From Candidatus Peregrinibacteria bacterium (GTDB lineage: Bacteria > Patescibacteriota > Gracilibacteria > UBA1369 > UBA12463), in assembly GCA_026395555.1 (NCBI GenBank), contig JAPLYO010000024.1:124001-188000 (forward strand): a stretch of DNA of 64,000 nucleotides, given 5' to 3'. Within the stretch, counting starts at the first letter, position 1, and every line of letters starts with the position of its first letter. Shown here in pieces: positions 26,840 to 37,554 of this stretch. The notes beneath the pieces were generated by a model. That model had not been told where the DNA came from. It searched no databases and worked only from the letters and a program-made list of their open reading frames with translations. A program made the position numbers and the translations under genes.

Positions 26840-27607
26840 AACTACTCGATGTGGGAATACGACTACGGCATTCCAGATTCGCTTCCAGCGTTTTGGCTCT
26901 TTAATGAGGCGATAAAGCCACTCGAGACCGAGATTTTGGAGAAGTAGGGGGGCGCGTTTGATCGTGCCTGAAATATAGTCGAAGGTACCGCCAACACCGA
27001 TGGCGGCTTTTATGGTTGGTATTTTATGAAGGTTACGGGCGATCCATTTTTCTTGTGCTGGAGCGCCATATGCGACGAAAAGGATCTCTGGATTTGTATC
27101 GTTGATGATATCTTTCATTTTTTCTTCTTCGTAAGGAGAAGGGGAGCCGCTATATGTTCCTACTATTTGTACCTTTGGAAATTGTTTTTCGAGCTCAATT
27201 TTGGTTTTTTCCGCTACCCCTGGCTGTGCGCCTAAGAGAAATATTTTAGTGCCGTTTTCGGCTGCCTGTTGTGCTATATCGAGCATGAGATCAGCGCCTT
27301 TGATGAGTTCCGGCAGGGGAGTGGTTGGTTTTTTGAAGAGGAGTTTGAAGAGTTTGAGGAAGGAAATTATTTTTGGGTCGTTTTGTGTATTGGCAGCCCA
27401 AAGCAGACCTGTTCCATCGGCGGTATTAATGGCGGATTTATTGAGTATGTTCATAAAATCTTTGTCGTGTTGCGCGGCGAGAATCATCTCAGGATTAATA
27501 GTAATGATCTGTTTCTGTTCCTTTGATTCATTAAAAATAATATCCAGTAATTCGGATTTCGTGAGTGCATCTACCGGTACGCCCATAATGGTTATCCTTT
27601 TTTGCAT
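26828..27607 (-). CDS. WecG/TagA/CpsF family glycosyltransferase
   Basis: The 259-residue GT26 protein has INPEMILAAQ, NTADGTGLLWAA with the catalytic Asp, IFLLGAQPGVAEKT and LFVAYGAPAQEKWIARN. TagA and WecG add N-acetylmannosamine-type sugars to undecaprenyl-linked intermediates, using the C-terminal tail to reach the membrane. The tail here ends RVVSRQ. The upstream methyltransferase overlaps its start by 16 bp. It converges with the AbiEi-like gene with a 12-bp overlap. Confidence 0.87.
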   Translation of the reverse strand: MQKRITIMGVPVDALTKSELLDIIFNESKEQKQIITINPEMILAAQHDKDFMNILNKSAINTADGTGLLWAANTQNDPKIISFLKLFKLLFKKPTTPLPELIKGADLMLDIAQQAAENGTKIFLLGAQPGVAEKTKIELEKQFPKVQIVGTYSGSPSPYEEEKMKDIINDTNPEILFVAYGAPAQEKWIARNLHKIPTIKAAIGVGGTFDYISGTIKRAPLLLQNLGLEWLYRLIKEPKRWKRIWNAVVVFPHRVVSRQ

Positions 27608-28257
27608 ATGACGATGATGTTGTGATGCGAGGTGAATATTTTTTCTACGGTGATTTTTTTGTCTACCAGTCTGCGTAATTCCGATTTGGTGAATGCGTGA
27701 TAGTAACGTTCGAGCTTGTTATTCCATCCAATGAAGAGGTCGTTCCAATCGTGTGGTCCGCCTAGGATTTTGGAAAGGATGGCTTTTAGTATTGATGAGA
27801 TATATTTTTTTTGCCAGAGGTTCCATACCGAGATAATGATCGTTCCGTTTGGTTTTGTAATGCGCATGAGTTCATGTATGGCCTTTTCTCGCAGTTCTTT
27901 TGAAGGGATGTGCGGGAGAGTAGCGATACAAAAGGTTACGTCGGTAGAGTTGGATGGTAGGGGGATATCGAGGAGTGATCCTTCAACGAATGTTTTGGTT
28001 GGATGTAATTTGTGAGCTTCCGAAAGAAGATTTTTGCTGACATCGATGCCGGTATAGGTGATGTCTTTTGGAAGGCTCTCGATGAGTCGGCCGTTGCCAC
28101 AACCTATGTCGGCAATCGTGGCATGAGGTGGAATTGAGCTTTTGAAGGTTTCGAACTCGGCCCAGGGGGCTTTGCGGGTTTGGGAAAACTCAGAAGCGAT
28201 AGTATCGTAATCCAGCTTTACTTTTTCTAAAATTTGTCGGGCAATTTCTGTTTTCAT
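27592..28257 (-). CDS. Trm9-like class I SAM methyltransferase
   Basis: The 221-residue protein carries motif I in ATIADIGCGNGRLIE (about residues 46-60) and the ISVWNLW strand. Two stretches resemble the Trm9/ALKBH8 tRNA methyltransferases: DYDTIASEFSQTRKAPW (residues 16-32; family pattern IAxxFSxTRxxxW) and RYYHAFTKSELRRLV near the C-terminus. Trm9 esterifies cm5U34 to mcm5U in eukaryotic tRNA. The divergent neighbour is Elp3, which makes the cm5 group, so a two-step wobble-uridine pathway is plausible. A generic type 11 methyltransferase for small molecules is the alternative. Confidence 0.68.
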   Translation of the reverse strand: MKTEIARQILEKVKLDYDTIASEFSQTRKAPWAEFETFKSSIPPHATIADIGCGNGRLIESLPKDITYTGIDVSKNLLSEAHKLHPTKTFVEGSLLDIPLPSNSTDVTFCIATLPHIPSKELREKAIHELMRITKPNGTIIISVWNLWQKKYISSILKAILSKILGGPHDWNDLFIGWNNKLERYYHAFTKSELRRLVDKKITVEKIFTSHHNIIVICKKG

Positions 28258-28262
28258 ATGAT
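28234..28262 (+). promoter_or_regulatory. Promoter of elp3
   Basis: TTGTCG (28234-28239), 17-bp spacer, TATGAT (28257-28262). The promoter overlaps the start of the divergent methyltransferase gene. A transcript start near 28269 favours the ATG at 28278 over 28266. Confidence 0.55.
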
Positions 28263-28277
28263 AGAATGGGCTTCGCT

Positions 28278-29879
28278 ATGCATCAAATACCCATAAATCA
28301 TACCCTGAAGGAGCTGGTCAGACAAGCGCTCGCGCTGCCTGTGAAGGATCAGACCGCCCTGCAACAACTCAAGAATACGTATTCTGCGAAGCATAAAGTC
28401 TCTACGCCTACGAATATGGAGCTCATTGAGGCATATAGGCACATGGCTCAACAGAAGGAAGTTACTGAGGATCGTGACTTCATGAAATTTTTGAGAAAGA
28501 GGGGAGTTCGATCGATGTCGGGAATTGTTTCTATCACGGTTATCACGAAAGCCTTCCCATGCCCTGGAAAGTGCATTTTCTGCCCGACGGAGCCTGGAAT
28601 GCCAAAGAGTTATCTCTCGAACGAGCCGGCGATTATGAGGGCTATTCTGAATGATTTTGGAGCATATCGACAAACGGTGAATCGTATTGATAGTTTAAAA
28701 CGTACGGGTCACGAAACGGACAAGGTAGAAATCATTGTTTCCGGTGGAACATTTTCTTTTTATCCGCATGCCTATCAGACGGCTTTTACGAGACAGATTT
28801 TTAATGCATTAAATTATCCGTTGAAACCTGCACGAAGTTTGCTGGAGGCACAGCAGTTAAATGAAAAAGCAGAAAATAGATGTGTCGGTTTGTCTTTTGA
28901 GACGAGGCCGGATCATATTACAGAATTGGAAGTGAAGCGCCTCGCTACGCTCGGCGCCACTAAAATCGAGATCGGTATTCAGTGTCTGGACGACGAGATC
29001 TACGCCCTCAACCAACGAGGCCACACGATCGCCGATGTGGCCAGATGTATGCAGCTCCTGAAAGATGGCTGTTTCAAAGTCAACGCCCACATGATGCCAA
29101 ATCTCTATGGCTCCACTCCCGAACGTGACTTCGAAATGACGAAGGAGTTATTCGATAATCCTGCCTTCCGACCGGACTGGATGAAGATCTATCCGACGAT
29201 GGTAGTACCGTGGTCTGTTTTGGAAAAAATGCATAAACGTGGCGAGTTCAAGGCATATTCTGATGAGGTGCTTGTCGATCTCATGTGCAAAATCAAGCCG
29301 CTCATCCCTGAATACGTTCGCGTTACGAGACTTTATCGCGATATTCCCGCACCGACGATTGTTGATGGCTCCAAAATTTCTAATTTACGGCAGGTGGTTC
29401 AGGAAGAAATGAAACGCCGTGGACTCCCATCGTGTCGATGCATCCGTTGCCGAGAGGTTCGTGATACCGTGGTCGACCCGAAGGACCTGCGCATGCGCGT
29501 AACTGAGTACGACGCCTCAAATGGTAGGGAGTATTTCATTCAGTGGGAAGATCCCGTTTCTGACAAGATTTGCGCGTTCATCAGACTCAGGTTTCCTTCG
29601 CAGTATTTTACCGGTAAAAAACATTTTATCAAGGAGCTCCAAGATTGTGCCCTTATCCGCGAGCTCCACGTCTATGGCATGCAGATCCCGCTCAACGATA
29701 GGGAAGAAGGTTCTCAACAGCATTTTGGCCTCGGAAAGACGCTTCTTCTGAAGGCTGAGGAGATATCCCGGGCCGCCGGATTCAAGAAAATGGCTATTAT
29801 CAGCGGTGTCGGAGTTCGTGAATACTACCGCAAAACCGGTTACCAGCTTGATGGAACATATATGGTGAAGGGGATTTAG
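28278..29879 (+). CDS. elp3: Elp3-type tRNA uridine(34) cm5 radical SAM / GNAT enzyme
   Basis: The 533-residue protein has a radical SAM cluster motif FPCPGKCIFCP (C95, C99, C102), SGGTFSFYP, FETRPDHI and IEIGIQCLDD, followed by HMMPNLYGSTPERD, a cysteine pair CRCIRCRE and a C-terminal GNAT acetyltransferase domain (HFGLGKTLLLKAEE; YYRKTGYQLDGTYMVK). Elp3 uses acetyl-CoA and SAM to put a carboxymethyl group on U34. The second half is rich in C-ending codons. Start taken at 28278 from the promoter. Confidence 0.93.
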   Translation: MHQIPINHTLKELVRQALALPVKDQTALQQLKNTYSAKHKVSTPTNMELIEAYRHMAQQKEVTEDRDFMKFLRKRGVRSMSGIVSITVITKAFPCPGKCIFCPTEPGMPKSYLSNEPAIMRAILNDFGAYRQTVNRIDSLKRTGHETDKVEIIVSGGTFSFYPHAYQTAFTRQIFNALNYPLKPARSLLEAQQLNEKAENRCVGLSFETRPDHITELEVKRLATLGATKIEIGIQCLDDEIYALNQRGHTIADVARCMQLLKDGCFKVNAHMMPNLYGSTPERDFEMTKELFDNPAFRPDWMKIYPTMVVPWSVLEKMHKRGEFKAYSDEVLVDLMCKIKPLIPEYVRVTRLYRDIPAPTIVDGSKISNLRQVVQEEMKRRGLPSCRCIRCREVRDTVVDPKDLRMRVTEYDASNGREYFIQWEDPVSDKICAFIRLRFPSQYFTGKKHFIKELQDCALIRELHVYGMQIPLNDREEGSQQHFGLGKTLLLKAEEISRAAGFKKMAIISGVGVREYYRKTGYQLDGTYMVKGI

Positions 29880-29912
29880 CTTTGTTTCGTTCTAGCCCTG
29901 AAGCTGATTTTA

Positions 29913-29921
29913 TGATATACT
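29913..29921 (+). promoter_or_regulatory. Extended -10 element for the caspase-like gene
   Basis: TGATATACT, with no convincing -35. Transcript start near 29928 would exclude the TTG at 29882 and support the ATG at 29957. Confidence 0.5.
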
Positions 29922-29956
29922 TATCTGAATATCGCCATTTCGATATACATATAAAT

Positions 29957-32380
29957 ATGCCAGGAATATCCCATAGTCCCAACTCAGACAGACCATCCTT
30001 TGATCCCGAAGGATTGCAGCAATCACCGCACCTTACGGCCGAACAGTTACATGTGCAAGATAGATTAGAGGCAGTTGATTATTATAAATCAATGATGCGG
30101 CGAATTCATGAAATGAAGCAAAAATTCGCAGAAGGAAAGGAAATAGATGGAAAATCGATTTTACGTGAAATGTATGCGCATTTTCCTGATTATCATCCGA
30201 ATGATGATGAACCACTGTCTACATCTATTGAGAAACTTGAAGTTTTATTTTTTAGATTAGCATTACAGAAATTTGATTGCGAAATTCCTTCGTACTCTTT
30301 TCATCTGTGTGCTGTGCAAATGCAAAATACATTAAAAATTCTAGAACGAATTACGAAAATGCTTGATTTACGCATATCGCCTTCAAGTATTCGTGGATTT
30401 TTGAATGAAGTACAATCTTTGCTTAATGCTGAGCCAACTTTTGATATGGTTCTTTCCTATTTGCCTGATGCAATAAGACTTGGTCTTTCTCCTGATGAGG
30501 CATTGCAATTCTGGGTTAATAGAGAAGGTGATGAGGATCCTCTTTCTGCTATCCGTCATATGAAATCTGATGGAATTTCTGATCAGTATCTTGATACGTA
30601 TAACGCTCATTATAAGTCCAAAAAATCAAGTTTTAAACGAATATATGCTTTGCTTCCCTTGAAGGAGTTTATGTTTGATGAAGTGGCTACTATTTCTGAT
30701 TTTGATGCACCCGTCGAAGATTTATCGGACTATTTTCTTTATGTATATTCCGCAACCCATGCCTCTCCATTGTCCTTAATTGCTTTATACAAGCTTGAAA
30801 GGGACCCAGCTAAGGCTGTCGAAATTTCCGAAAATGGACATCTTTTTTCGGATAAGCGTTTTGAAAATACTATATTTCCTATAATTCTGGCTCATGGACT
30901 TTCCGCAATACCTGAGGCTACACAAAAAAATACAATGTATTTTATCAATCAGATTGCTCCAGTGATAAAGTCTGATTCTCATGTTGATTCTTACGATGCT
31001 ACTAAAATCGCTATTTTACTTTGGCGATTAGCAGAAGGGGATCTTGGCAATGCTCGTATAATCTATCATGTAACTTTCCAGAGTGATCGTAAGCTTGAAA
31101 GTGAAAATATTTTTACTGGAAATATTGAAGATGCATACCCATTTGTGGTGGCCCTACAGGGTCGGAATATTCCCTTTGCTAAAATTATTGATCTTTGGTC
31201 ATATTCTCATGGTCCATATGAAGCTCTTCAGGTAGATGCATTCGTTTCATGGATTGAACCACAGCGTAAACATTTCAAAATAGCTTCTCCTAAAGAGCCA
31301 AAAGGACAAGATCAATATGATGCGATGAAGGCTTTTTCAAGCCTTCCTCCTGAGGCAAAGGATTTTGTACCCTATCTTCTTGATAATCACTATTATGTTC
31401 CATATAGAAATCTTGCTCTCTATTTTCAAGATCCATCTATGCTTCTTTGTGTTCAGATTTATAAAACACTTGGGACGAAAAATGTTGCTGATGCCCTACG
31501 TTTAGGAAGAAGCCTCTACTACCAAAATGTTAAATTTGTTCCAAGTAAGGACTTACTCCTTCTTAAACTAAAAGAATTTGAAGCACATCAGCTTTCCTCG
31601 GATCAGATCGTGCTCTTTGAAGGAAGAAATCTTGTTTTTCTGGCCAATTCTGAGACGAGTGGACCTTTTTCGAAGTCTAGATTCAATGGTTTGGAGCTTC
31701 AAGAAAATTTAAAAAAAAGTGTGGGCGAAAAGGGGACTTCATCTTTGCATGCACCAAAATCCGAGAATCCTGACACTGTGGAACTTAATAGTATTAAGAA
31801 GTCTGTTCTTGAGGAAATTACCTCTACTCCGCCACCTATGACGTTCTTTTTTAATGGTCATGGGCAGAAAGATTCAATATATATGAATAACGGAAAAATT
31901 CCTGGTACTGATTATGCAAAGGCAAAATTACGTTCCTATTTTGATACTTTTACTGATTACATTTCAGTTGATGATTTTGCCAAGGCCGTGGCTAAACGCA
32001 AACAAAAATTTCCAGATAATTCCCAAGCCCTTTCTCGTGATATCTATATATTTGATGGTTGTTATCAGCATGAATTTATTAGAAAATTTTATGAGCTTAT
32101 AGCGCAGCAAGATGGTATTGCCCCCATTACCATTGCACCAGCAGAATTTGGTCAATACAGCTTTTCTGATCCACGAAGCTTCGTTCCCTTGATAGGGAAG
32201 TTATTTGATGAAGATCCAAACGATATTATTTTCCGTCTTGGAACATTAGGCACAAAAATAGGAGATATTCGTAAGAATGTTGATAAGTATTCATTATCCA
32301 GGTATGTAGTTTATGTCCCGAATGCAGCTGGACAGCCACAGCAGGTGGTAATGAATGGGATAGGAGGGGATGATTCGTAA
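29957..32380 (+). CDS. Large AT-rich protein with C-terminal caspase-like (clan CD-type) motifs
   Basis: The 807-residue protein (start at MPGISHSPNSD) has no signal peptide. Residues 1-600 are mostly helical and unrecognised. Near the C-terminus FFFNGHGQ (H635) is followed 67 residues later by IYIFDGCYQHEF (C702), each at the end of a hydrophobic strand, as the His-Gly and D-x-C of caspase, CHAT and gingipain-type peptidases. The gene is clearly AT-richer than elp3 upstream and is followed by 400 bp of AT-rich noncoding DNA, suggesting transfer. A peptidase activity is inferred; it could also be an inactive relative. Confidence 0.55.
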   Translation: MPGISHSPNSDRPSFDPEGLQQSPHLTAEQLHVQDRLEAVDYYKSMMRRIHEMKQKFAEGKEIDGKSILREMYAHFPDYHPNDDEPLSTSIEKLEVLFFRLALQKFDCEIPSYSFHLCAVQMQNTLKILERITKMLDLRISPSSIRGFLNEVQSLLNAEPTFDMVLSYLPDAIRLGLSPDEALQFWVNREGDEDPLSAIRHMKSDGISDQYLDTYNAHYKSKKSSFKRIYALLPLKEFMFDEVATISDFDAPVEDLSDYFLYVYSATHASPLSLIALYKLERDPAKAVEISENGHLFSDKRFENTIFPIILAHGLSAIPEATQKNTMYFINQIAPVIKSDSHVDSYDATKIAILLWRLAEGDLGNARIIYHVTFQSDRKLESENIFTGNIEDAYPFVVALQGRNIPFAKIIDLWSYSHGPYEALQVDAFVSWIEPQRKHFKIASPKEPKGQDQYDAMKAFSSLPPEAKDFVPYLLDNHYYVPYRNLALYFQDPSMLLCVQIYKTLGTKNVADALRLGRSLYYQNVKFVPSKDLLLLKLKEFEAHQLSSDQIVLFEGRNLVFLANSETSGPFSKSRFNGLELQENLKKSVGEKGTSSLHAPKSENPDTVELNSIKKSVLEEITSTPPPMTFFFNGHGQKDSIYMNNGKIPGTDYAKAKLRSYFDTFTDYISVDDFAKAVAKRKQKFPDNSQALSRDIYIFDGCYQHEFIRKFYELIAQQDGIAPITIAPAEFGQYSFSDPRSFVPLIGKLFDEDPNDIIFRLGTLGTKIGDIRKNVDKYSLSRYVVYVPNAAGQPQQVVMNGIGGDDS

Positions 32381-36412: not shown

Positions 36413-37554
36413 CTATTCAACTAATTTATAAAATCCTCTCTTTCCTATCTGTAAAATTGAGTCGCCTGCGATGGTAACTGTGCTCATAAAGTCTTCGATT
36501 TTTTCGCCGTTGTATTTGACGGCGCCTCCTTGGATTAGACGACGGGCCTCGCCTTTTGATGGGCAGGCTTTGAGCTCGATCATGATATCGACAATGTTCA
36601 TATTGGCGCTTGAGAGTTTGATTTCCGGAATTTCATCGGGAAGTTCTTTTTTTGAAAAAACTTGAATGAAGTGTTCCTCGGCTTCTTGCGCTGCAGCAGC
36701 GGAGTGATAGATCGTGACAATTTCGCGAGCGAGGCGCATCTTGAGGTTGCGTGGATTTTCGCCGGAGAGGAGTTTGCTGTTGATTTCATTGATCTCGTCG
36801 ATGGAAATATTCGTTGTGAGCTCGAAGTAACGGACGATCAAGTTGTCTGGAATCGACATGGTTTTGCCGTACATATCTTTCGGATCTTCGTTGATGCCGA
36901 TGTAGTTGCCGGTGGTTTTGCCCATTTTCTTCACGCCGTCGGTTCCTTCGAGAATGGGGACGGTGAGAACGCATTGGGGAGTTTGGCCGTAGGAGCGCTG
37001 GATTTCGCGGCCGGCGAGGAGGTTGAAGGTTTGGTCGGTTCCGCCGAGCTCGACGTCGGCCTGAATGGCGACGGAGTCGTAGCCCTGCATGAGAGGGTAC
37101 ATAAACTCTCCATCATTTGCTGTACGGTGAAGACGGAGGCGAGGCGAGTGACATCGGAGAATGTCAGCTTGCCGAGCCAGTCAGCGTTCCAGACGACCTC
37201 GATTTTTTCGGTGTCGAGAACTTTTGAGGCTTGTTGAAGGTAGTGCTTGGCGTTTTCTTCGAGTTCGATTTGTGTCTTGAGTGGGCGTGCCTCGGCTTTG
37301 CCTGATGGATCCCCTATCTGTCCGGTGAAGTTACCGAAGAGGAGAACAGCGGTGTGGCCGGCATCCTGGAACTGTCGCATTTTGCGAAGCGGCACCATGT
37401 GACCGAGATGGAGATCAGCTCCTGTTGGGTCGATTCCGAGCTTAATACGGAGCTTTTTGCCTGATTTGAGCTTTTCTTCAAGCTCTTTGCGGACGATGAC
37501 GTCAGCTACTCCTTTGTCGAGAATATTTGAGATAATTTCTTTTGTGTCTTTCAT
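36413..37554 (-). pseudogene. tyrS: Tyrosyl-tRNA synthetase, disrupted by a short deletion with frameshift
   Basis: The N-terminal part (37554 to about 37111) has GIDPTGADLHLGHMVPLRKM (HLGH) and VFTVQQMM; the C-terminal part (from about 37108) resumes in another frame with [37 protein letters not shown] and an S4-like tail. Intact relatives, as I recall T. thermophilus TyrRS, have about 17 more residues between these points, so roughly 52 bp are missing. TyrRS is essential. Either this is a sequencing or assembly error, or a second copy exists. Confidence 0.85.

Follow-up and report, generated by a model that had tools for sequence, protein, structure and literature searches.

Which modification does the wobble uridine carry in a bacterium whose elp3 gene lies back to back with a gene for a Trm9-like methyltransferase? 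According to the textbooks, MnmE-MnmG convert U34 of the two-codon boxes in bacteria to (c)mnm5(s2)U. Elp3 makes cm5U34, which Trm9 then esterifies to mcm5U34, and the eukaryotic Trm9 requires Trm112. Here, we analyse a window of 64,000 nucleotides (the whole stretch of DNA under study) in which a preliminary description had suggested these two successive steps from a gene pair. The host assembly comprises 1.2 Mb in 32 contigs and is approximately 90% complete. The two genes are as follows.

27592..28257, minus strand: Trm9-type class I SAM methyltransferase of 221 aa, assigned by open reading frame, sequence, profile, fold and tree
28278..29879, plus strand: elp3 (radical SAM and GNAT domains), predicted tRNA U34 carboxymethyl enzyme, assigned by TIGR01211; the open reading frame opens at 28266

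The methyltransferase reading frame is real and contains both motifs quoted in the preliminary description. Its product is most closely related, among named organisms, to proteins of Candidatus Peribacteria bacteria (91% and 90% identity), which places the host in the candidate phyla radiation (CPR). Elp3 reaches 549.9 bits on TIGR01211, with a cut-off of 350, and aligns end to end with the solved bacterial Elp3 of D. mccartyi, 6ia8. Its start codon is probably 28278, the next ATG after 28266, since the ATG at 28266 overlaps a TAnAAT-like box that the alignment shows to be common to the relatives (TAGAAT, 28262-28267). With this start, the distance of about 20 bp between both start codons, as originally described, holds. 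Two further features belong to elp3 and its upstream region.

28234..28286, no strand: back-to-back promoter-like sites between and inside the gene starts, with the TATCATATGATA palindrome and the TAGAAT box; consensus matches only
28560..28583, plus strand: radical SAM cysteines of Elp3, CPGKCIFC (Cx3Cx2C)

The palindromic TATCATATGATA at 28258-28286 carries promoter-like sites for either direction. Transcription of both genes probably begins only a few bases from their start codons, suggesting messages with no leader or almost none. Elp3 of the CPR bacteria, i.e., the window protein and those of 107 related loci, has Cx3Cx2C in place of the Cx4Cx2C of the solved D. mccartyi Elp3, and a short stretch is deleted immediately behind this motif. 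Directly downstream of elp3, an open reading frame of 832 residues (29882-32380, plus strand) has no match in Pfam or NCBIfam. Elsewhere in the window, tyrS (tyrosyl-tRNA synthetase, 36413-37554, minus strand) is split into two overlapping frames. It is unbroken in six of the seven other family genomes searched and the host genome shows no intact second copy. Either the assembly is wrong at this point or an essential gene is truly damaged.

The assignment of the 221-aa protein to the Trm9-type methyltransferases is largely supported by sequence, fold and tree. In a phmmer search of PDB sequences, Yarrowia lipolytica Trm9 (5cm2_Z) is the top match with E 2e-15 and 60 bits, followed by the next at 33. 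A profile built from 34 relatives again places Trm9 first (95 bits, next 67), and the match spans nearly the whole protein including the C-terminal part, while most others end after the SAM core. The AlphaFold model (pLDDT 95.7) exhibits a two-stranded lid, strands 173-178 and 182-187, matching the position of the lid in Trm9. For the predicted fold, 5cm2_Z is the first-ranked Foldseek hit (E 1e-16). In the IQ-TREE phylogeny, a branch with support 97/94 parts the CPR proteins, Y. lipolytica Trm9 and the haloarchaeal protein L155 from 22 other methyltransferases, among them CmoM, UbiE, UbiG, BioC, Tam and the nearest other CPR methyltransferases; the Trm9-type references are one eukaryotic and one archaeal sequence, and the bootstrap is not fully settled. 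The haloarchaeal protein, encoded on a plasmid of Natronorubrum bangense, reaches 121-126 bits with the family profiles. On this megaplasmid, the Trm9-type gene (L155:2914-3624) is accompanied by a radical SAM gene approximately 1.8 kb downstream. The motif likeness from which the preliminary description had started is not due to chance, as the best PDB match is Trm9 and no other parts of the family are as well conserved as these motifs. The profile searches and the tree proposed at that stage point the same way: no unrelated methyltransferase ranks ahead of Trm9 by sequence, profile or fold, and the Trm9 clade is supported.

In yeast Trm9, the exchanges R29A, H115A, R241A, Y243A and N271A strongly reduce tRNA affinity and activity (PMC5372719). 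We tied the S. cerevisiae numbering to our proteins via the residue identities given in PMC5372719 and via the R29-H115 spacing of 86 in Y. lipolytica Trm9. The equivalent sites in the window protein are encoded as follows.

28162..28185, minus strand: codons of SQTRKAPW, residues 25-32; R28 corresponds to yeast Trm9 R29 (R in 86/86 members; role of R29 from PMC5372719)
27910..27915, minus strand: codons of P115-H116; position 115 corresponds to yeast H115 (H in 79/86, P here)
27697..27708, minus strand: codons of RYYH, residues 184-187, in the two-stranded lid; R184 and Y186 correspond to yeast R241 and Y243 (model and alignment)
27619..27621, minus strand: codon of N213, corresponding to yeast N271 (profile and alignment)

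Across 86 distinct family members, the equivalents of R29 (86/86), H115 (79/86), R241 (85/86), Y243 (78/86) and N271 (79/86) form the conserved core. The R29 equivalent is also an arginine in the yeast and the haloarchaeal protein. According to the alignment, the set of five is not kept by the 22 outgroup proteins. The window protein keeps four of them, R28, R184, Y186 and N213, and carries a proline in place of H115, a point that the preliminary description had missed.

These residues bear on two other readings. An enzyme that acts in the Elp3 pathway but yields another end product, for instance by acting on a cm5U derivative that is not the free acid or by methylating another atom of the anticodon loop, appears rather unlikely to us. 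The gene neighbourhood with elp3 would fit it equally well, the haloarchaeal U34 nucleoside has been described as close to mcm5s2U without being the same (PMC2584109), and H115 is replaced in seven of the 86 members, the window protein included; however, the residues that position cm5U34 in yeast Trm9 (R29, R241, Y243 and N271) have retained their equivalents. Less probable still is that the family acts on cm5U34 as proposed and the window copy is impaired by its proline. Yeast H115A is strongly defective (PMC5372719) and the close relative L002 has the same proline, but the intact window gene shares 91% identity with its neighbour, and the recurrence of proline in the distant members L097 and L130 suggests that this exchange may be tolerated. 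The activity of the window copy is less certain than that of the family.

The genomic context, too, supports an esterification of cm5U34 by a Trm9-type enzyme. Within the order (89 genomes), the methyltransferase occurs in 79 and Elp3 in 80 genomes, 78 of which have both. All 71 pairs located on the same contig are divergent, and 61 of them lie within 300 bp. In a sample of 381 Patescibacteria genomes, where family presence was counted at E<=1e-27, Elp3 is found in 137 genomes (approximately 36%) and the methyltransferase in 105, so that most genomes with elp3 also carry it; 103 of these 105 have Elp3. Divergent neighbours make up 89 of the 94 same-contig pairs, 85 of them within 400 bp. The co-occurrence over the 381 genomes corresponds to a Fisher P of ~1e-60, a value that ignores shared ancestry. 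In an independent collection of 80 loci, Elp3 is nearby in 63 and divergent in 63 out of 63. The two genomes with a profile match and without Elp3, G393 and G417, both have weak matches, and the G417 protein (L166) was rejected as a family member, as it falls among other methyltransferases in the tree. Thus, the methyltransferase is essentially never found without elp3 among the 381 Patescibacteria genomes, and the neighbourhood survey suggested by the preliminary description reveals a very strong conservation, with 71/71 divergent pairs in the order and 89/94 divergent neighbours in the phylum.

It is hardly credible, then, that the protein is a generic class I (type 11) small-molecule methyltransferase that lies beside elp3 by chance. 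Pfam and NCBIfam return generic type-11 or UbiE-like matches only, and the equivalog names offered by NCBIfam (UbiE, UbiG, BioC, DVU_1556) were rejected, all being far under their cut-offs. Against these stand the first rank of Trm9 by sequence, profile and fold, the placement in the tree, and the co-occurrence with elp3, which nearly refutes such a reading.

Two observations concern the edges of this distribution. No recognisable Trm9-type gene is present in 30 of the 137 Elp3 genomes (e.g., G107, G142, G122, G235 and G290), several of which belong to family f37. The second step is thus not universal, and the end product may differ in these genomes. Furthermore, the family members L122 and L114 are found on contigs labelled Ignavibacteriales and Omnitrophota, with a divergent elp3 beside L122; these are either mis-binned CPR contigs or cases of gene transfer.

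The other enzymes of U34 were searched by profile in the same 89 genomes of the order. Neither MnmG nor MnmE exceeds the cut-off in any of them (0/89 each). Matches to MnmG are short Rossmann-type scraps of 17-20 bits, and matches to MnmE with E ~1e-31 cover only model positions ~170-400, remain below the cut-off and were read as the GTPase domain, e.g., of Der/EngA. In the phylum, MnmG exceeds the cut-off in five of the 381 genomes, all five lacking both Elp3 and the methyltransferase. The host genome contains MnmA, which passes its cut-off in 81 of the 89 genomes. That we are dealing with a CmoM-like enzyme esterifying cmo5U34, equal chemistry on a neighbouring nucleoside as established for CmoM, is close to excluded, as the cmo5U maker CmoB is absent from 89 of 89 genomes and E. 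coli CmoM, with 26 bits on the A2 profile where Trm9 has 106, groups with the other methyltransferases in the tree. The preliminary description had seen no Trm112-like gene in the window. This holds also for the whole assembled host genome and for nearly the whole order, where PF03966 is over cut-off in one of 89 genomes; the same search was positive in 8-9 of 14 control genomes. Missing contigs are unlikely as the reason for these absences despite the incomplete assembly, given their consistency over 89 genomes.

In these CPR bacteria with their tiny genomes, a gene of the Trm9 family, otherwise found in eukaryotes and some archaea, lies beside elp3 and the usual bacterial enzymes are missing; the decoding base is thus probably modified in the eukaryotic and not in the bacterial way. 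We infer the following reactions, their order and their tRNA targets. Elp3 would use acetyl-CoA and a SAM radical to carboxymethylate wobble uridine 34 at C5 (cm5U34), and the divergent 221-aa Trm9-type carboxyl methyltransferase would esterify the attached group with SAM, yielding 5-methoxycarbonylmethyluridine (mcm5U34). MnmA would add sulphur at C2 in the tRNAs for Lys, Glu and Gln codons, which gives mcm5s2U34. The Elp3-methyltransferase pair would thereby stand in for the absent MnmE-MnmG pathway, and the methyltransferase would work without Trm112. We consider this whole sequence of steps, with Trm112 independence and the replacement of MnmEG, to be likely. The proline of the window protein at the H115 position counts against it, as does the fact that no Trm112 was found although eukaryotic Trm9 needs it. 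Since Trm112 is defining for the eukaryotic holoenzyme only, we place the protein among the Trm9-type enzymes as a Trm112-free variant, distinct from eukaryotic Trm9 proper.

With the methyltransferase domain of eukaryotic Trm9 and ALKBH8, the family shares the fold, the lid, the equivalents of R29, R241, Y243 and N271 and, in most members, H115, as well as the partnership with Elp3-made cm5U. It differs in being bacterial, in its size of approximately 220-240 aa, in the failure to find Trm112 and in its divergent arrangement with a stand-alone Elp3. The combination of Elp3 and Trm9 homologues is shared with the predicted archaeal Trm9 systems (HVO_1032/HVO_0574 in Haloferax, an elp3-trm9 cluster in Sulfolobus; PMC5372719, PMC2584109). 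The prediction for the archaea dates from 2008; in S. solfataricus, elp3 and trm9 lie in one cluster (PMC2584109). However, Archaea have Trm112, use Tuc1/Ncs6 instead of MnmA, and their proteins form a separate clade. The bacterial MnmE-MnmG(-MnmC) system, which yields mnm5(s2)U34, targets the same atom of the same base and relies on the same thiolase, MnmA, but its chemistry is different and MnmE and MnmG are absent in these bacteria. E. coli CmoM likewise methyl-esterifies a U34 carboxyl group, yet its sequence lies outside the clade and its substrate pathway is absent here. A review of 2017 described bacteria as having no detectable genes with significant similarity to Trm112-dependent methyltransferases (PMC5372719). 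Among open-licence papers, we found none joining Elp3 or MnmG with Patescibacteria/CPR that deals with such a pair.

From a biological point of view, elp3 is accompanied by a conserved Trm9-type gene in many families of a very large radiation of bacteria without MnmEG. With somewhat less confidence than for the pathway itself, we think that a large part of the Patescibacteria has probably swapped MnmEG for Elp3, a single-chain, Trm112-free Trm9 and MnmA, making mcm5(s2)U34. The pair makes the wobble chemistry of the CPR directly testable, provides a Trm9 which may not depend on an activator, and is relevant to how bacteria, archaea and eukaryotes share the combination of Elp3 and Trm9.
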